Below, piece by piece: positions 13,621 to 22,962 of a stretch of DNA of 64,000 nt. The position numbers and the translations under genes were made by a program. The stretch's first letter is position 1, and every line of letters begins with the position of its first letter. Below the pieces are notes generated by a model. That model was not told the origin of the DNA, did not search any database, and was given only the letters and a program-made list of their open reading frames with translations. Source of the DNA: Desulfofustis sp. PB-SRB1 (lineage in GTDB: Bacteria; Desulfobacterota; Desulfobulbia; Desulfobulbales; Desulfocapsaceae); the NCBI GenBank assembly GCA_016722945.1, contig JAEQMT010000038.1, forward strand, positions 62,001 through 126,000, read 5' to 3'.

Positions 13621-14547
13621 CTACACCTGTGGTCTTGGATAGAGCCCCGCCTGTTTGACGATTTCCTCGACCTTTTCTTCCCAGTCAATGGCCATGATGT
13701 GGAACCCGGCCACCCCCTCAACCTCCTTCAACCGTTCCATGGTCTCCAGGCAGATCTTGATTCCCTCAGCCGGCTGATCCTCTTTGGCGACACCGCTCAT
13801 CCGATCCACCAGCTCCTGGGGAACGTCCATGCCGGGTACCCTGTTTTTCATGTACTTTGCCGCCCCCACCGATTTCATCGGAGTAATGCCGGCCAGTATA
13901 TAACACTTCTCATGCAGCCCCATCTTCCGGACCCCTTCCATCCACTTCTCAAACTTCTCAATGTTGAAAATGCACTGAGTCTGAATGAAATCGGCGCCGG
14001 CGGCTATTTTTTTCGCCAGTCTCATGACGCGCAGTTCAAAGGGATCGGCAAACGGATTGGCGGCCGCCCCGATATACATCTTCGGCACCACGCCCTTGAT
14101 TTCGGCGCCGCCCTGAAATTTACCCTCGTCGCGCATGCCTTTGACCATCTGAATCAGCTGGATGGAATCGATGTCATGCACATTGGCAGCCATGGCGTGA
14201 TCGCCGAACTTGGTGTGATCGCCGGACAGACAGAGCATGGTGTCGATACCCAGGGCATAGGCGCCAAGGATATCGGCCTGCATCGCCAGCCGGTTCCGAT
14301 CCCGGGTCACCATCTGCAACAATGGGTTCATTCCCTGCTGCTTGACCAGCACCGAGCCGGCCAAACTGGACATCCGCACCACCGCCGTCTGATTGTCGGT
14401 GATATTGACCGCATCGACGACGCCTTCGAGATACTTCGCCTTATCCACCACCGTCTGGGCCGAGGCGCCGCGGGGAGGGCCGCACTCGGAAGTGACGGCA
14501 AGGTGACCGCCGGACAATACTTTTTCCAGATTGCTTTGAGTTTTCAT
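13621..14547 (-). CDS. metF: MetF-type methylenetetrahydrofolate reductase
   Basis: This protein of about 308 residues has the TIM-barrel fold of MetF enzymes, which reduce methylene-tetrahydrofolate to methyl-tetrahydrofolate using FAD. Recognisable blocks are VTSECGPPRGA at the N-terminus, VDAVNITDNQTAVVRMSSLA, the central RDRNRLAMQADILGAYALG with CLSGDHTKFGDH, and GADFIQTQCIFNIEKFEKW. The ATG at 14547 overlaps the stop of metV (ATGA), so the two are coupled. Together with MetV, MvhD and the Hdr proteins it resembles the MetVF-Hdr-MvhD complex of acetogens, in the methyl branch of the Wood-Ljungdahl pathway. The direction in vivo cannot be told from sequence. Confidence 0.92.
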   Translation of the reverse strand: MKTQSNLEKVLSGGHLAVTSECGPPRGASAQTVVDKAKYLEGVVDAVNITDNQTAVVRMSSLAGSVLVKQQGMNPLLQMVTRDRNRLAMQADILGAYALGIDTMLCLSGDHTKFGDHAMAANVHDIDSIQLIQMVKGMRDEGKFQGGAEIKGVVPKMYIGAAANPFADPFELRVMRLAKKIAAGADFIQTQCIFNIEKFEKWMEGVRKMGLHEKCYILAGITPMKSVGAAKYMKNRVPGMDVPQELVDRMSGVAKEDQPAEGIKICLETMERLKEVEGVAGFHIMAIDWEEKVEEIVKQAGLYPRPQV

Positions 14548-15212
14548 TCCGCTAAATCCTCCCTGACTATCTTGCGCGGTCCGCTGCCGCCACCTGCCCG
14601 CCAGTCTTTGGCGGGCATAATCTCGAGGTATTGGTCGGTGAGCCCAAGCGCCTTGAGCCGCTCCCAGATGAGGTGCCAGGCACATTCGACCTCATCTCCG
14701 ATCTCACAGACCCCGCTGACCGAACCGCCGCAGGGACCATTCATCAATTGTTTGGCGCACTTGGCAATGGGACAGATGCCGCCGGTCACCCCCAGCAGAC
14801 AGTCGCCGCAGCCCTGGCACCGTTCGGTCCAGACCCCGTGCCGATCAGAGCCGCCCATGAATTTGGTGTTGACGGCGGGAAACACCGGCTTGTCCTTAAA
14901 TCTGGTGGCCAATTGCTGAACACCGCAGCCACATGCCATGGACAGCACCGCATCGGCACTATCGATGATGGGGACAAGCTCTTCGACGTACTCGGGGTCG
15001 CACTGCCGCTCCAGGGTATGTTCCCGGATCTCGATGCTGGCGCCGTTTTTCAGCATACTCATCTGAATGCCGGAAGCGAGCACCCCGACCTCCTTTCTGC
15101 CACCTGCCGCACAGACCGTGACGCACTCGTTGCAGCCAAGCAGGAGAATGCGTTTGAACGGTTTGATGTAAGACAGTATCTCGTCAAGTGGTTTTCGTTC
15201 GGCTGTTATCAT
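14544..15212 (-). CDS. metV: MetV, zinc/iron-binding partner of MetF
   Basis: This 222-residue protein belongs to the family annotated as methylenetetrahydrofolate reductase C-terminal domain (MetV). It is cysteine-rich: LLLGCNECVTVCAAGG near the start, SMACGCGVQQLA in the middle, and ERCQGCGDCLLGVTGGICP with CAKQLMNGPCGG towards the end. The last block is typical of MetV and probably binds an iron-sulfur cluster or zinc. MetV is needed for methylene-THF reductase activity in acetogens and couples MetF to the electron-transfer subunits (family knowledge). It lies 48 bp after mvhD and overlaps metF by 4 bp. Confidence 0.92.
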   Translation of the reverse strand: MITAERKPLDEILSYIKPFKRILLLGCNECVTVCAAGGRKEVGVLASGIQMSMLKNGASIEIREHTLERQCDPEYVEELVPIIDSADAVLSMACGCGVQQLATRFKDKPVFPAVNTKFMGGSDRHGVWTERCQGCGDCLLGVTGGICPIAKCAKQLMNGPCGGSVSGVCEIGDEVECAWHLIWERLKALGLTDQYLEIMPAKDWRAGGGSGPRKIVREDLAE

Positions 15213-15260: not shown

Positions 15261-15680
15261 TCAGGCAGCCGCGGCCTTGATTGGACTCGGCCCCAGCTTG
15301 CGTATCTTTTCCGTCATTTCCGTGGCCACCCGGGCAAATCGCTCACCCATGCCGGCCGACATTTTGACCATCTCGAGCCGCTCCGGCTCGATGCCGATTT
15401 CCTCGAGATAGCCGCGCATATGGGCAACCTTTCTGGCAGCCTTGTCGTTGCCGTTCTTGAAGTGGCAGTCACCATCGAGACAGCCGGCCACATAGACGCC
15501 GTCCGCCCCTTTCTCAAAGGCCTTGGCAATATGCAGGGAATCGACCTTGCCGGAACACGGTACCCGGATAATTTTGACGTTGGCCGGATAGACAAGCCGC
15601 TGACTGCCGGCCATATCGGCAGCCGTGTAGGCACAATAGTGGCAGCAGAACGCCACGATTACAGGTTCAAAGTGTTCCAT
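15261..15680 (-). CDS. mvhD: MvhD/FlpD-type [2Fe-2S] electron-transfer subunit
   Basis: This small iron-sulfur protein of 139 residues passes electrons to HdrA in hydrogenase, formate dehydrogenase or MetVF complexes. Family motifs are FCCHYCAYTAADMAG at the N-terminus, IIRVPCSGKVDSLHIAKAFEKGADGV (read in parts) and VAGCLDGDCHFKNGN. The cysteines in CCHYC, PCSG, GC and DC are the usual cluster ligands. Its ATG shares a base with the stop of hdrA (TAATG), so expression is tightly coupled. In this operon it most likely joins the HdrA module to MetVF. Confidence 0.92.
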   Translation of the reverse strand: MEHFEPVIVAFCCHYCAYTAADMAGSQRLVYPANVKIIRVPCSGKVDSLHIAKAFEKGADGVYVAGCLDGDCHFKNGNDKAARKVAHMRGYLEEIGIEPERLEMVKMSAGMGERFARVATEMTEKIRKLGPSPIKAAAA

Positions 15681-18600
15681 TATGCCACCGCCTTCGCAAA
15701 GAGTTGTTCTATTTTGGCAAGCACCTGGTCGTCTTCGAACTGCAGCAGTTCAATGGCCTTAGCCGGACATTCGGCGGCGCACATGCCGCAACCGTGACAC
15801 CTGGCCGGATCGATTTCGGAGTAACCGTCGGCATTGATAAACGGCACATCGAAGGGGCAGGCTCTGACACAGATCAGACAGGATGCACACCGGGTGGAAT
15901 CGACTTTTGCCGTGACCGCGCCGAGATTGATCGCCTCGCGGGCGAGAATGGTCATTGCCCGGGACGCCACCGCCCGTGCCTGGGTCAAACTTTCGCCGAT
16001 GGTCTTCGGGGCATGGGCGGTGCCGGCGACAAAAAAGCCCGGCGTCGGCAGATCCACCGGCCGCAGCTTGACGTGATCTTCGAGAAAATAGCCGTCGTGG
16101 GTGCGCGGCAGTTTGAAGATCATGGCCAGTTCCTCGCTGCTATCGTCGGGGGCAACCAGCCCCGTGCTCAAACCGACGCAGTCGGCATTGACCTGAATCC
16201 GGCGCTCGAGAATGATATCGTGGTAGGTGACCGCAACCTGGTCGTCGGAAATTTCCACCCGCGGCGGCTCATCCTGATGATAGCGAACGAAGATGACCCC
16301 CTTTTCTCTCGCCTTCTGGAAATACTCTTCCTGAAAGCCATAGGTACGCATATCGCGATAAAGCACGAAAATCCGGGCCTCCGGATTCACTTCGAGAATA
16401 TGCAGCGCATTTTTCACCGCGTTTTGGCAGCAGATCCGCGAGCAGTTCGGGTTCTCCTCGGTGCGTGAGCCGACACACTGGATCATGACCACGTTGTCCC
16501 ATGCCTGGACCCGCTCAGGACCTTCATGGATGAGGTTTTGCAGCTCCAGCTGGGTTACCACCTTCTCACTTTTGCCCAGCCCGAAGAGATCGGGGCGATT
16601 GGGCACGGCCCCGGTGGCCAGAATGGTGACTCCATGCTCAATCCGGCGATAGAACATTTGCCTGCCCACCTGCATGCCGGTGGTAAACATCCCGGGCATA
16701 CCGGTGTGATCGACGATGATCCCGCCGGTTATTACCTCTATGAGTTCGTGTGCTCTGGTGCGCTCGATCAAATCGTTTACGAAACTTTTGATATCGTCGC
16801 CTTCCAGGGTGCGATGAAGCTGTGCGGCGATGCCGCCGAGCCGGACGCCCTGCTCCACCAGATATACCTTGAACCCCTGATCGGCGATCTCCAGGGCCGA
16901 GGTCATGCCGGCCACCCCGCCGCCGACCACCAGGACATTTTTGTTTATCGGCAGACTGTGTTCGGCCAGCGGGTGGGACTTGCGGACCGCGCCGACGGCC
17001 ATCTTGAGCAACTCCTCGGCCTTGTCTATGGCCCGCACCGGCTGATGGGAGTGTACCCAGGTTACCTGATCGCGGATATTGGCGAATTCCAGCAGATATT
17101 TATTGAGGCCCGCTTTTCTGATCAGATCCTGAAATTTCGATTCATGGGTGCGCGGTGAACAGCCGCCGATTACCACCCGGTTGATGTTCTGCTCCTCTAT
17201 GGTCTGGCGGATGTGAGCCATCGACTCGCGGCTGCAGCCGTGCCCGACACCCTCGGCCACCGCCACCCCCGCCAGCTTGGAAACCCGCTCTACCAGGGTG
17301 GTAACATCGATCACACCGCCGATATTTTCGCCGCAGTCACAGATAAAGACCCCGACCCGGGGCTCCTCGCCCACCACATTTTTTTCAGGTGGCAGGGCCG
17401 GCTCGCGTTCCCGTTCAATTTCCGGGACGGTTACGTCTTTGCCGGCCATGCAGGCGGCGGCACTGGCCTGAACCATGGTTTCAGGAATATCTTTGGGCCC
17501 CTGAAAGGTGCCGGCGACGTAGATACCCGGCCTCGAGGTCTCCACCTGGTTGAGGCCCGGGTTCACCGGGAAATTGGAATCATTTATTTCCAGATCAAAC
17601 ACGGACGCCAGCTCCCGCACCTCGTCACCGATTCTGAAACCGGTGGACAAGACGACCATGTCAAATTCTTCGGTGAGCAGCCTGGAGCTGTCGTCGGTGG
17701 TGTAGCCCAGTTCCATCCGTTCGGCACCGGGGGCACGCAGCACACTGTGCGGACGGCTGTGGATGAAACGCACACCAAACTCGTTCTTGGCCCGTTGATA
17801 ATAGCGCTCGTAATCCTTGCCGAAGGTGCGCATGTCCATATAGAAAATGGTGGTCTCGATATCCTCCTGGAACCGTTCCTTGGTGACCATGGCCTCCTTC
17901 AAGGCGAACATGCAGCAGGCGCCCGAGCAGTATGGGGCGGCCCCTTTCTGCAACCCCCGTGAGCCGATGCACTGAATCCAGGCCACTTTTTTCGGCTGTT
18001 TGCCGCTGGACGGACAGAGAAGGCGTCCCTGGGTGGGGCCCGAGGCCGACAGAATGCGTTCGTACTCGAGGCTGGTCACCACATCGGGATTGTCGGAATA
18101 CCCCAGATAGTCAAGTCCCGAGGGATCGAAGAGCGAGGCGCCGGGGGAGAGGACAATGGAGCTGCAGGCAATATCACCGGTGCTCCCCAGCTCGTCGGGA
18201 TTGATAGCACCGGCCGGACAGCACTGCACCAGTGCCGCCACATCGTCGCATTTACTCAGATCGACGGCATAAGCGTAGGGGGTGGCCTGCGGATAACGCA
18301 TACAGGTGGGGGCCCGATGATCGAGACCGGGAGTGAAGGTGACACAGTGGGGAAATTGTTTGAGACATTCACCGCAGCCGGTACATTTATCCAGATTTAT
18401 ATAGCGCGGCCGGGTGGCCAGCGACACGGTGAAATTGCCCTTCTCACCACGTACCCCGCGCACCTCGGTCATGGCCATCAGACTGATATGCTCCTGACGA
18501 TTCGACTCGGACAGATTGGGGGCCAGGGTACAGAGGTCGCAATTATTTGTCGGAAAGGTCCGGTCAAGCTGGGTCATCAGGCCGCCGATATTGTTGGCGC

Positions 18601-18721
18601 GATCCACCAGCACCACATCTTTTTCGGCTTCCGCCAGATCAAGAGCGGTACGGATGCCGCCAAGGCCAGCGCCGACCACGAGAACTCGATTACTTGTCTG
18701 AGATCTATCTGTTTTTTGCAT
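15680..18721 (-). CDS. hdrA: HdrA-like flavoprotein with two tandem modules
   Basis: This 1013-residue iron-sulfur flavoprotein is about twice the size of a simple HdrA. The first half begins with an FAD-binding fold (VLVVGAGLGGIRTALDLAEA), the NCDLCTLAPNL cysteine pair and a ferredoxin-like CTGCGECLKQFP. The second starts with GVFICDCGENIGGVID and GGCSPRTHES, has its own FAD motif (VLVVGGGVAGMTSALEIADQ) and a C-terminal pair of [4Fe-4S] sites (CASCLICVRACPF and CHGCGMCAAECPA). HdrA is the flavin-based electron bifurcation or confurcation subunit of heterodisulfide-reductase-like complexes. Here it would join MvhD/MetVF to HdrCB. It follows the second MetF paralogue by 35 bp. Confidence 0.92.
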   Translation of the reverse strand: MQKTDRSQTSNRVLVVGAGLGGIRTALDLAEAEKDVVLVDRANNIGGLMTQLDRTFPTNNCDLCTLAPNLSESNRQEHISLMAMTEVRGVRGEKGNFTVSLATRPRYINLDKCTGCGECLKQFPHCVTFTPGLDHRAPTCMRYPQATPYAYAVDLSKCDDVAALVQCCPAGAINPDELGSTGDIACSSIVLSPGASLFDPSGLDYLGYSDNPDVVTSLEYERILSASGPTQGRLLCPSSGKQPKKVAWIQCIGSRGLQKGAAPYCSGACCMFALKEAMVTKERFQEDIETTIFYMDMRTFGKDYERYYQRAKNEFGVRFIHSRPHSVLRAPGAERMELGYTTDDSSRLLTEEFDMVVLSTGFRIGDEVRELASVFDLEINDSNFPVNPGLNQVETSRPGIYVAGTFQGPKDIPETMVQASAAACMAGKDVTVPEIEREREPALPPEKNVVGEEPRVGVFICDCGENIGGVIDVTTLVERVSKLAGVAVAEGVGHGCSRESMAHIRQTIEEQNINRVVIGGCSPRTHESKFQDLIRKAGLNKYLLEFANIRDQVTWVHSHQPVRAIDKAEELLKMAVGAVRKSHPLAEHSLPINKNVLVVGGGVAGMTSALEIADQGFKVYLVEQGVRLGGIAAQLHRTLEGDDIKSFVNDLIERTRAHELIEVITGGIIVDHTGMPGMFTTGMQVGRQMFYRRIEHGVTILATGAVPNRPDLFGLGKSEKVVTQLELQNLIHEGPERVQAWDNVVMIQCVGSRTEENPNCSRICCQNAVKNALHILEVNPEARIFVLYRDMRTYGFQEEYFQKAREKGVIFVRYHQDEPPRVEISDDQVAVTYHDIILERRIQVNADCVGLSTGLVAPDDSSEELAMIFKLPRTHDGYFLEDHVKLRPVDLPTPGFFVAGTAHAPKTIGESLTQARAVASRAMTILAREAINLGAVTAKVDSTRCASCLICVRACPFDVPFINADGYSEIDPARCHGCGMCAAECPAKAIELLQFEDDQVLAKIEQLFAKAVA

Positions 18722-19662: not shown

Positions 19663-20985
19663 CTAGTATAGTGACGTTTCGGGGTGAAAGACATCGACAT
19701 CCTTAAGGTCGTCGCCCAGATAGGCACGCTCGTTCGGCCCCAGTATCCCCAGCGACAGACAGAGCAATGTCCAGATGTGCACCGTGTTGTATGTGGCGCC
19801 GTGGTGATGGGCAAGATCATGCACCTGGGCATGACAATTATGACAGCCGGTAATGCAGTAGTCGGCCCCGGTGGCAATAATCTGGTCATACTTGAGCTGC
19901 CCGTAGTCCCTTCTGGCATCAGTGAAACCCGACTGGAGAAAACCGCCGCCACCACCGCAGCAGTAGTTGTTGGACTTGTTCGGGGTCATTTCGATGACAT
20001 TTTCCTCACCGACGATGGACTTGACCACAAAGCGCAGATCATTTGCCACCTCATCCCCATAGCTCTTGCGGACGATCTGGCAGGGATCCTGGATGGTAAA
20101 GGTGATCTTGCGCTCGCGATTCCACTCGGAGCTGGGTTTGAGCCTGCCTTCTCTGATCCACTTGGCGTAGTAGGAGTAGATTGAGGCAACCTCGAAGTTG
20201 TGATCGATGTTGAATTTTTTCAGTCCGGCCCGGACTGAGAAGGTGATGTGCCCTCATTCGGTATTGAGAAAGACCTTGCACCCCAACTCATCGGCCTGCT
20301 GGGCCGAAACCCGGGTCACATGCTCCCAGCATTTGTCGTCAGCGAGAAACAAGCAGTAATTCTCAGCGGCCCAGCCACGGCTGCCGTAGGTCCAGTCAAC
20401 CCCGGCCAGATGGAGGATTTTCCAGAGCGGCACCAGCTCATCGGGTTCGGTGTTGGGTTCCCGTGAGTTCTGATTTAAAAAGAAATAGGCGCCCGGTTTG
20501 TCGATGGGCGCCGCCATATCCTTGAACTCGGGCTGGGATTCCTGGTACTCCGCCAGAACGTCCTCGACCACGAACACGAAATCATCGGGAGCGGTTCCCA
20601 TGGCGCTGTTCGAGTCGTTTCTCAGCGCCATATCGCAGGAATCCCGGATTCCTTTCGGCCGCTGCTCCCGCGGCCATTCGGCCCGGGCATTGTAGACCAG
20701 CTGCGGGATGTCGATCCGCATCGGGCATACATAGATGCAGCGCTGACACATGGTGCACATCCATACCCAGGGATGGGTCGTCACCTCTTCATCGAGCCCC
20801 ATCGCGCACATGCGCAGAAACTTCCGGGGGTCCATATCCTCCAGCCCGGTCGCCGGACAGCCGGCGGCACAGGCCCCACAGGTGAGACAGAGATCAAGAT
20901 TGCCGCCACCCGGGATAATGTGCCGGACCTTATCCTTGAAAGAAGATTTTTTCCTGCCTTTTACTTCGATTGTGGTTGTAGTCAT
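19663..20985 (-). CDS. HdrC-HdrB fusion, probable selenoprotein (in-frame UGA at codon 244)
   Basis: One reading frame of 440 codons is interrupted only by TGA at 20256-20254. The N-terminal HdrC part carries two [4Fe-4S] motifs (C33-C36-C39-C43 and C77-C80-C83-C87). The C-terminal HdrB part carries a CCG motif: C302, C342-C343 in NNYCCGGGGG, then C381-C384 in GCHNC. The TGA falls in the sequence LNTE-U-GHITFSVRAG, where relatives have Cys before GH. There is no other stop for the following 196 codons and the downstream part keeps full similarity. A 7-bp hairpin begins 16 bases after the TGA (see separate entry), as in bacterial SECIS elements. Selenocysteine is the best reading; a Cys-to-stop mutation is the alternative. 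The protein is the likely heterodisulfide-reductase-like partner of HdrA. Confidence 0.82.
20221..20256 (-). promoter_or_regulatory. Candidate bacterial SECIS element with its UGA codon
   Basis: On the minus strand the TGA (20256-20254) is followed by 16 bases and then CAGTCCGGGCCGGACTG (20237-20221). That is a perfect 7-bp stem with loop GGC, extendable with a few more A-T pairs. The loop starts 23 bases after the UGA and begins with G, which fits the known geometry of bacterial SECIS hairpins read by SelB. The hairpin lies wholly within coding sequence. Confidence 0.7.
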
Positions 20986-21042: not shown

Positions 21043-21312
21043 CTACTTCTCAAATACTTCGGCTGATGTTTCGGTTTTCTGGATGAGCACCTGGCAAAAT
21101 CCACCCTCATCTTCAATCTCGCCGGATTGGATGACTCGATAAGATGATGGAGGCAGAATCTTGAACAGATCGCGCCGCATCTCAAAATCCGCTCCCTGTA
21201 TCTCCAATATCTCCGATGTGTTCATGCCCTCAAAAACCTGGGTAATCTTCAACAGCGAGAACCAGGAAACAAAATTCCGTAAATCCATGACGATATGAGA
21301 CTGCTTAGACAC
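21043..21312 (-). CDS. TusA-family protein lacking the sulfur-carrier cysteine
   Basis: This 89-residue protein has the small alpha/beta fold pattern of the TusA/SirA family, with VMDLRNFVSWFSLLKITQVF, the strand EILEIQGADFEMRRDLFKIL and a PPSSYRVI turn. Classical TusA carries a CPxP motif after DLRG that holds the persulfide. Here the matching place reads NFVSWFSLL, so no sulfur transfer by that cysteine is possible. The only Cys is in GFCQVLI near the end. The GTG at 21312 has a good ribosome site (AAGGTGAG). It is the first gene of the long minus-strand operon, 57 bp before hdrCB. TusA-like genes often accompany Hdr-like clusters. Confidence 0.72.
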   Translation of the reverse strand: MSKQSHIVMDLRNFVSWFSLLKITQVFEGMNTSEILEIQGADFEMRRDLFKILPPSSYRVIQSGEIEDEGGFCQVLIQKTETSAEVFEK

Positions 21313-21355: not shown

Positions 21356-21371
21356 TTCAAAAGGCGGGCCA
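21356..21371 (-). promoter_or_regulatory. Possible sigma-54 promoter (weak)
   Basis: Read on the minus strand, TGGCCCGCCTTTTGAA matches the sigma-54 pattern TGGCACGN4TTGCA, except for one base in the -24 box and, more seriously, A for the near-invariant C of the -12 GC. It lies 44 bp upstream of the TusA-like start. A sigma-54 activator gene diverges from the same intergenic region, which supports the call. Confidence 0.35.
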
Positions 21372-21573: not shown

Positions 21574-22962
21574 ATGAATATGATCGGACGCGAACTTGAC
21601 GGATACTGGAAAACGGTGGTCAACACCATCCGTGATGGCGTCATGATCATTAACCCAGGCGGCACCATCGTCTCCGTAAACACGGCGGTTGAACGGATAA
21701 CCGGCTACGGCCGGGAAGAGCTGATCGGTACCCATTGTTCCATTCTCGACACTGAACCTGACCATAATAGTCGCAGATTCAGTGAGTCTCCGGCTGGTTC
21801 CAGCAATTCCCCAAACGACTCAGACCAGCACCAGTGTCTGGTCAAGCGAAAAGACGGCTCCCTGGTACATACCCTGAAGACCACCGCCGTTCTGGATGAC
21901 GGGGCGGGCAATGCCCTTGGCAGGGTATACACCATCACCGATCTCACCGAAATCGTCGAAAAAGAGAACCAGCTTGCGGCGTATCGTAAACAGCTCGACG
22001 CCGAGCACGATTTCCACGGCATCATCGGCGACTCGCCGGTCATGCGGAAGGTGTTCGATATCATAGAAAATGCCGCCCAATCAGAGGCACCGGTCATCAT
22101 CTATGGCGAAAGCGGTACCGGTAAAGAGCTGGTAAGCAGGGCGATTCACCAGCTGGGCGCCAGAAGCGACAAACCGTTTATCAAGGTAAACTGTGCCAGC
22201 CTCACCGAATCACTGCTGGAAAGCGAGCTTTTCGGTCACGTCCGCGGCGCCTACACCGGCGCCTACAAGGATCGCAAAGGCAGATTCGAAAAAGCCAACA
22301 GCGGTGACCTTTTTCTTGACGAGATCGGTGATTTGCCCCTGGCAACCCAGATCAAACTTCTTCGGGTCCTCGAAGAAAAGGTGATCGAACGGGTGGGCTC
22401 CTCAACCCCGATTACAATCGATGTGAGGATCATCTCCGCCACCAACCAGGATCTACCCCGATTGGTGGAAAACGGCAGCTTTCGCAATGATTTCTATTTC
22501 CGAATCAACGTCATCCCGATTGTTCTGCCCCCCCTCAGGGAACGGCCCGAAGACATCCCCCTGCTGATCGATCACTTCTTCCAGACCATGTCGCTGAAAA
22601 GCGCCAAGACCATCGAGGGGGTGCACGAAGAAACCATGGAATTGCTGATGCACCACCGCTGGCCGGGCAATGTGAGAGAACTCAAGGGCGCCCTTGAATA
22701 CGCCTTCGTGACCTGCCACTCGGGACCGATCCGGCCAAATCATCTGCCTGAGACCATTTTCAGAAAACAGAGCACCCCGCCGCCGCCGAAAAGAACCGGG
22801 CTCAATCTTTCTGAGATCGAACGGCGGGAACTGCTCGATGCCCTGGAAAAAACCGGCGGCAATCAGTCTCAGGCCGCCAAGCTGTTGGGTATCTCCAGGG
22901 TAACCGTGTGGAACCGGATGAAACGCTTCAATATCCAGACAAAACTCGATATTTCCGGATAA
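21574..22962 (+). CDS. Sigma-54-dependent PAS activator
   Basis: This 462-residue bacterial enhancer-binding protein has an N-terminal PAS domain (VVNTIRDGVMIINPGGTIVS, residues 12-120). A sigma-54 AAA+ domain follows with Walker A GESGTGKE, the sigma-contact loop in the variant GAYTGA, Walker B DLFLDEIGDLP and the R-finger region. A C-terminal Fis-type helix-turn-helix (GGNQSQAAKLLGISRVTVW) ends the protein. There is no receiver domain, so it probably responds to a ligand or redox signal sensed by PAS. It is transcribed away from the TusA-Hdr-Met operon, and the shared 261-bp spacer has a palindrome and a weak sigma-54 promoter; it is the natural candidate regulator of that operon. A MITE follows its stop by 20 bp. 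Confidence 0.92.
   Translation: MNMIGRELDGYWKTVVNTIRDGVMIINPGGTIVSVNTAVERITGYGREELIGTHCSILDTEPDHNSRRFSESPAGSSNSPNDSDQHQCLVKRKDGSLVHTLKTTAVLDDGAGNALGRVYTITDLTEIVEKENQLAAYRKQLDAEHDFHGIIGDSPVMRKVFDIIENAAQSEAPVIIYGESGTGKELVSRAIHQLGARSDKPFIKVNCASLTESLLESELFGHVRGAYTGAYKDRKGRFEKANSGDLFLDEIGDLPLATQIKLLRVLEEKVIERVGSSTPITIDVRIISATNQDLPRLVENGSFRNDFYFRINVIPIVLPPLRERPEDIPLLIDHFFQTMSLKSAKTIEGVHEETMELLMHHRWPGNVRELKGALEYAFVTCHSGPIRPNHLPETIFRKQSTPPPPKRTGLNLSEIERRELLDALEKTGGNQSQAAKLLGISRVTVWNRMKRFNIQTKLDISG

Follow-up and report, generated by a model that had tools for sequence, protein, structure and literature searches.

Does an in-frame TGA in the middle of an HdrC-HdrB fusion gene (hereafter, hdrCB, product HdrCB) of Desulfofustis sp. 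PB-SRB1 terminate translation or encode selenocysteine (Sec), and what might such a residue do in the protein? The gene occupies positions 19663–20985 of the minus strand of the window, by which we mean the whole 64,000-nucleotide stretch of DNA that was analysed. It comes from a genome of 4.69 Mb in 71 contigs (97.6% complete).

The reading frame and the Sec machinery

With the TGA read as a residue, 19663–20985 translates into 440 residues of which a single one is recoded. This is codon 244 (20254–20256, minus strand), set in the motif NTE-U-GH and followed by 196 further codons and a TAG stop. Re-reading the DNA reproduces the preliminary description of one TGA in an otherwise open 440-codon frame; the interval given there, 20221–20985, lies in the right gene but spans 765 of its 1323 bases, the true end being at 19663. 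Under the standard code the same stretch is listed as two open reading frames of 243 and 128 amino acids, and gene catalogues built on that code would be expected to cut such Sec genes in two. A scan of the window for frames split by TGA returned 42, that of HdrCB included; several of the others, for example 16466–17960, run antisense to HdrA.

The best matches to HdrCB are 94% identical in a Desulfobulbaceae MAG, 93% in a Desulfofustis MAG and 89% in Desulfofustis glycolicus. Searching the GTDB collection gave 306 relatives, of which the closest 80 loci were kept (L066 and L073, L078 and L084, and L090 and L091 are pairs from one assembly each). All 80 have a single stop within the matched stretch, which is a TGA in the same motif and at the same place, and the codon is therefore not a sequencing error. 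Conservation runs through both halves of the protein, before and after the TGA.

The genome search suggested in the preliminary description located tRNA-Sec, SelA, SelB and SelD in the host. The tRNA-Sec scores 71.4 bits, above the Rfam cut-off, with agreement from ARAGORN, and selA, selB and selD each exceed the cut-off of the curated family. The selD gene (L135; C1:254885–255808 of the same genome) itself carries one in-frame TGA.

A SECIS hairpin and the exchange of Sec for Cys

Starting 15 nt after the TGA is a hairpin with a perfect 8-bp stem and the loop GGC (20238 to 20220, minus strand), whose inner 7 bp begin 16 nt after the TGA and had been put forward earlier as the gene's own SECIS. 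The 48 nt from the TGA onwards have a computed folding energy of -16.7 kcal/mol (z -3.12), with 1 of 200 dinucleotide shuffles as stable, and the hairpin keeps the same distance from the TGA across relatives; Desulfofustis glycolicus DSM 9705, for one, carries both the TGA and the hairpin. Because hairpin conservation alone is weak proof within a conserved protein, synonymous variation was measured, expressed as diversity relative to the expectation from codon use in the same genes. In 81 genes the mean ratio is 0.19 for codons 249–257 against 0.90 for 369 other columns (p 3e-7, treating columns as independent), and each of the ten five-codon windows with the lowest ratios, out of 381, overlaps codons 249–257. 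Val251 is GTC in 81 of 81 genes, and all 80 rows with Leu at position 255 use CTG for it.

The pairing itself appears to be maintained. Across 102 distinct Sec rows of 107 (L106, L107 and L109 share their SECIS DNA with L071, L063 and L079, and identical rows were counted once in the pair counts), 97.1% of stem cells are paired, compared with 12–46% in slid controls. Changes on both sides of a pair are found in 41 cells versus 8.3 in shuffles, and are spread over four pairs; one of the five pair measures, the number of further pair types, gave no excess over shuffles (9 versus 7.5; 67/500). The first loop base, a G, is invariant in the 107 rows, and the available part of PMC1794560 names a conserved loop G in a figure legend on the bacterial SECIS.

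At the SECIS place, the first five Cys homologues are only 40% paired. A second set, of 40 loci, gives a mean of 6.3 pairs out of 8 for the 19 Sec rows versus 3.7 for the 21 Cys rows (p 2e-4); at the fixed place at least 7 of 8 pairs are found in 11 of the 19 Sec rows, the other 8 having fewer, and in 2 of the 21 Cys rows. The contrast in this set is weaker than in the first, but still clear. The Cys rows L149 and L153 retain a recognisable hairpin, possibly as fossils of a recent Sec-to-Cys change. A paralogue in the host's own genome, L011, has a hairpin at the same place built from partly different letters. An Rfam scan of 20100–20400 with E up to 5 returned one unrelated weak snoRNA match, with no bearing against the hairpin. 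The synonymous constraint, the compensatory changes, the invariant loop G and the absence from most Cys homologues examined, taken together, identify the hairpin, by comparison, as the proposed SECIS, with SelB-driven insertion itself a prediction.

Codon 244 alternates between TGA and Cys, as the preliminary description had envisaged. Among 152 aligned rows, which are a chosen sample including the 80 closest relatives and three copies (L106, L107 and L109), TGA is found in 126 and Cys in 26, and nothing else occurs; L177, chosen as a TGA row, has Cys at 244 and was counted as Cys. A quick tree of 95 rows requires 11 Sec/Cys changes, at least eight of them forced by starred branches, and flags long branches that meet. 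Its rows comprise the window protein, 26 of the 80 loci (every third), L010, L011, 26 of the 29 loci L106–L134 and the 40 loci L139–L178, with L009, L106, L107 and L109 left out as copies; the 39-row clade that includes the window's HdrCB (support 80) is entirely Sec. In a phylum sample of 395 genomes, with at most four candidates scored per genome, 109 genomes gave a match at 1e-60 or better. By hand count, 51 of the 69 matches listed at 50% identity or above, the window's own included, have a TGA inside, 17 have no stop and one has a TAG only, the place of the TGA having been verified in the fetched loci alone.

The host genome carries a Cys form of HdrCB (L010, NTE-C-GH, 59% identical) and a second Sec form (L011, LPE-U-GH, 33–35% identical). 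HdrCB and L010 would offer a natural Sec/Cys pair within one genome for asking what selenium does beside a noncubane cluster. By eye, L010 adjoins a GlpB-like gene and L011 a gene resembling a hydrogenase maturation protease; at L011:1447–2937 (C43:233545–234684), also by eye, an N-terminal stretch resembles a helix-turn-helix.

Were the TGA a true stop, in a pseudogene, through an error of sequencing or between two separate proteins, the downstream half would be unused or separately started. The two open reading frames listed under the standard code accord with this, but the recurrence of this TGA in every one of the 80 kept loci (three assemblies supplying two loci each), the conservation of both halves, the synonymous constraint on the hairpin and the presence of tRNA-Sec, SelA, SelB and SelD make it extremely improbable. 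An open frame by itself cannot discriminate between Sec and another amino acid, such as Trp, or a residue inserted by near-cognate read-through. That reading is nonetheless very improbable: rows without TGA at 244 always have Cys (26 of 26, among the 152), the hairpin mainly accompanies TGA, and metV of the same operon uses TGA as its stop, so that the codon is not simply reassigned in the host. Pyrrolysine was considered on account of an extra TAG in some rows of the phylum sample, and dropped after two such loci were examined (L122 has no TAG within the aligned part, and in L129 the TAG is at the far C-terminus).

Recoding of the TGA in HdrCB thus looks real from the comparison of relatives, and the earlier claim of a selenoprotein is borne out by the Sec machinery, the TGA common to all 80 loci, the constraint on the hairpin and the exchange of Sec for Cys. 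The hairpin, starting 15 nt further on, would enable SelB and the Sec-tRNA to read UGA-244 through. It is comparison of sequences that establishes the Sec coding and the SECIS, as it does the domain make-up and the operon conservation described below. We put at about 0.85 the joint probability that HdrCB makes a full-length 440-residue selenoprotein and that the explanation given here is the best as a whole.

Domain architecture and the place of residue 244

Pfam assigns to HdrCB a dicluster ferredoxin domain (Fer4_8, residues 30–91) and a CCG domain (297–388). The HdrC dicluster domain is followed by an HdrB fold (166–430), which is the composition of an HdrC-HdrB fusion of the HdrD type; Pfam domains, profile alignment and fold match all support the fusion proposed beforehand. 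The HdrC-like part contains two [4Fe-4S] motifs, C33/36/39/43 and C77/80/83/87 (20713–20898, minus strand). The C-terminal CCG motif, comprising C302, C342, C343, C381 and C384 (19822–20097, minus strand), is the expected site of a noncubane cluster, and these five cysteines are invariant in 40 close relatives. They form the only complete motif, with no second CCG match by Pfam, and HdrCB does not have the two complete CCG noncubane sites of HdrB proper. It scores 18.9 bits with the NCBIfam model for HdrB proper (TIGR03288; cut-off 345.15), and falls below the respective cut-offs of the TmcB, HmcF and DsrK models.

The AlphaFold model of HdrCB has a mean pLDDT of 75.1 and a pTM of 0.80; loops 35–51 and 344–348 are below 50, and the latter belongs to the CCG motif. 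The best fold match is EtfD from Mycobacterium smegmatis (9ojn; Z 23.1 over 343 residues). Methanogen HdrB (5odc_B) matches over 252 residues (Z 19.2); for five HdrB chains the Z scores are 19.2–19.7 over 247–253 residues, from residue 166 on. A hypothetical protein from Helicobacter pylori (3kwl) also matches, with Z 19.1 over 333 residues.

In a profile (HMM) alignment, U244 falls on EtfD Cys581, His246 (codon 20248–20250, minus strand) on His583 and residue 247 on Cys584, such that the C-P-H-C of EtfD is aligned with U-G-H-x here. According to the available part of PMC13083937, EtfD has a linear [3Fe-4S] cluster to whose ligands Cys581 and Cys584 belong, and the noncubane cluster in its second domain has His583 as the completing ligand. 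Alignment with HdrB relatives by hhalign places the Sec motif ten residues off the EtfD register; the latter was preferred on account of the model, whose strand-to-helix transition around U244 much resembles that around C381. The equivalence of U244 and EtfD Cys581 rests on the one HMM alignment and on this predicted strand-helix pattern.

None of the 152 rows has Cys at residue 247; His246 is present in 149 of them and missing in three. Cys211 is kept among close relatives and is Gly in two distant paralogues. We infer from alignment and model that the first CCG cluster has been lost, and that Sec244, apparently the only residue of ligand type that the first CCG motif retains, and two residues before His246, would stand in its place beside the noncubane cluster. 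HdrCB would act as a fused HdrC-HdrB (HdrD-type) electron-transfer subunit, whose HdrC half has two [4Fe-4S] motifs and whose HdrB half could bind a noncubane cluster at its single complete CCG site. The first CCG site would have lost its usual ligands except Sec244, which would probably face the noncubane cluster at the point of electron entry to or exit from HdrB, serving there as a redox or ligand residue that is fast and of low pKa.

Two other roles for Sec244 can be weighed against this. Its selenolate may coordinate an Fe-S cluster directly, either the noncubane cluster or a remnant of the first CCG cluster, rather than being a free redox-active selenol, as suggested by the alignment of Sec244 with a ligand of the linear cluster of EtfD and that of His246 with the ligand His583. 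However, with no Cys in any of the 152 rows at the position of EtfD Cys584, and with Cys211 not universal, a full first cluster looks unlikely, and we consider direct ligation doubtful. HdrB handles heterodisulfide, and by this ancestry Sec244 could be the thiol-disulfide active site for a small or protein disulfide, for example on a DsrC- or TusA-like carrier. An ECGH motif also occurs in a distant paralogue, L014, that is DsrK-like by eye, and a faintly TusA-like protein is encoded upstream of HdrCB. That TusA match is below the cut-off (E 0.073), the substrate is only hypothetical and most of the 80 loci are without a TusA-like upstream gene, making this role, too, rather unlikely.

Returning to a redox-active Sec244 beside the noncubane cluster, a broader proposal may tentatively be made: many Desulfobacterota HdrB-like subunits may have swapped the first noncubane cluster for a single Sec or Cys. 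A new type of mixed Se/Fe-S active site would then arise from the selenolate together with the one remaining noncubane [4Fe-4S] cluster, and in the present operon it would take part in the electron bifurcation or confurcation of methylene-tetrahydrofolate reductase.

Gene neighbourhood and related systems

Downstream of hdrCB on the minus strand follow, in order, a second copy of MetF (MetF-like protein A, MTHFR family, PF02219; 18757–19629), an HdrA-type flavoprotein of 1013 amino acids with FAD-type domain matches in both halves (15680–18721), MvhD (FlpD; 15261–15680, no in-frame TGA), MetV (14544–15212; PF12225, TGA stop) and MetF (MTHFR; 13621–14685). The start of MetF is probably internal, because the family match begins only at residue 54. 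In 28 of the 80 loci the Sec gene is followed by these five genes in unchanged order (56 of the 80 have at least 5.5 kb of downstream sequence); in these 28 the MetF-like protein encoded between HdrCB and HdrA is 60–83% identical over the best segment. MetV is found on the same strand in 46 of the 80 loci and HdrA with MvhD in 49, and in 24 none of the operon genes occurs on the same strand within the stretch examined. The combination of hdrCB with hdrA, mvhD, metV and metF is that of an Hdr-type methylene-tetrahydrofolate reductase operon, and the Pfam assignments and the order common to 28 loci confirm the MetVF operon of the preliminary description.

The faintly TusA-like protein of 89 amino acids (21043–21312, minus strand) is possibly encoded by the first gene of the operon, and by hand count is found about 1.6 kb before the hdrCB end in 20 of the 80 loci. 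A divergent gene for a PAS sigma-54 activator lies beyond it (21574–22962, plus strand), and another is near the Sec hdrCB gene in L101 (L101:7910–9307); such activators are possible regulators of the operon. A sigma-54 promoter match at 21356–21371 was rejected, with 26 matches to the pattern in the window versus 37 expected. In the three of these 24 loci that were examined for other neighbours, a TRAP transporter and a GlcD-like dehydrogenase adjoin the Sec gene in L088 (Desulfotignum), the sigma-54 activator is found in L101 and a transporter-like gene in L059. With 24 of the 80 loci lacking same-strand operon genes in the stretch examined, one of them by the TRAP and GlcD-like genes, Sec is not tied to MetVF; judging from its neighbours, Sec HdrCB may serve electron transfer more generally and have MetVF as one of several partners. 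In the host, HdrCB would most likely form an Hdr-type methylene-tetrahydrofolate reductase with HdrA, MvhD, MetV and MetF; this complex and partner we infer, as we do the place of Sec244 beside the cluster and its chemical role.

The preliminary description considered Sec at this position unusual. That view is not upheld, since a Sec GlpC family has appeared in tables from 2006 onwards and HdrD4 is known. In the available parts of the literature, a 2006 table lists Sec GlpC ('Fe-S oxidoreductase (GlpC)'; PMC1794560), a 2026 table gives the motif UGH for a Sec 'Fe-S oxidoreductase-like protein' (PMC13188914), and PMC8318568 counts an Fe-S oxidoreductase among marine deltaproteobacterial selenoproteins. 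The portion available of PMC5109826 describes five Sec genes of D. multivorans, none named HdrCB, and that of PMC2398784 contains neither GlpC nor 'Fe-S oxidoreductase'. The Sec GlpC family (PTHR43551) likewise has Sec at UGH, is found in deltaproteobacteria and has Cys homologues elsewhere, as far as the excerpts of PMC13188914, PMC9312934 and PMC1794560 extend. HdrCB has both the UGA within UGH and the Cys homologues at the Sec position, and is a putative member of this family (PTHR43551, record WP_174406253.1). In the text available, the published Sec GlpC operon is glpC-hdrA-frhD-frhG-frhA, with MetVF unnamed; on our reading of the open reading frames, L011 would correspond to this type. 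For Desulfobacterium autotrophicum HRM2, the accessible part of PMC2702500 describes HdrD4, like HdrCB a soluble selenoprotein of HdrC+HdrB type, names a Sec HdrF2 as well, and places MetF1 within a Wood-Ljungdahl locus. Sec in the HdrCB-type family is already known from these partial sources, and the metVF-operon context was not found in print. The literature search (parts of main texts) found no text placing Sec HdrCB in an HdrA-MvhD-MetV-MetF operon and no structural reading of Sec244 at the first CCG motif.

As regards structure, the linear [3Fe-4S] cluster of EtfD sits, in the available text of PMC13083937, in the first CCG domain, and EtfD also has a membrane part; HdrCB, by contrast, has no membrane domain matched by Pfam. 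Methanogen HdrB (5odc) shares the fold and the second CCG motif with HdrCB and, by the same partial source, has two noncubane sites, of which the first is incomplete in HdrCB.

Energy coupling in the Wood-Ljungdahl pathway has been proposed to occur at the Hdr-type methylene-tetrahydrofolate reductase, and if the operon works as its content suggests, the enzyme would be selenium-dependent in many Desulfobulbales. The enzymes of Moorella thermoacetica and Sporomusa ovata (HdrBCA-MvhD-MetVF) have the same subunit set, in the available parts of PMC9430772 and PMC5736913; the word 'selenocysteine' does not occur in the main text of the former, and a fused HdrCB is reported in Chloroflexi DscP3 in the accessible part of the latter. 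Compared with the Moorella and Sporomusa enzymes, the HdrCB described here is fused and Sec-bearing, and its operon includes a second MetF-like gene.
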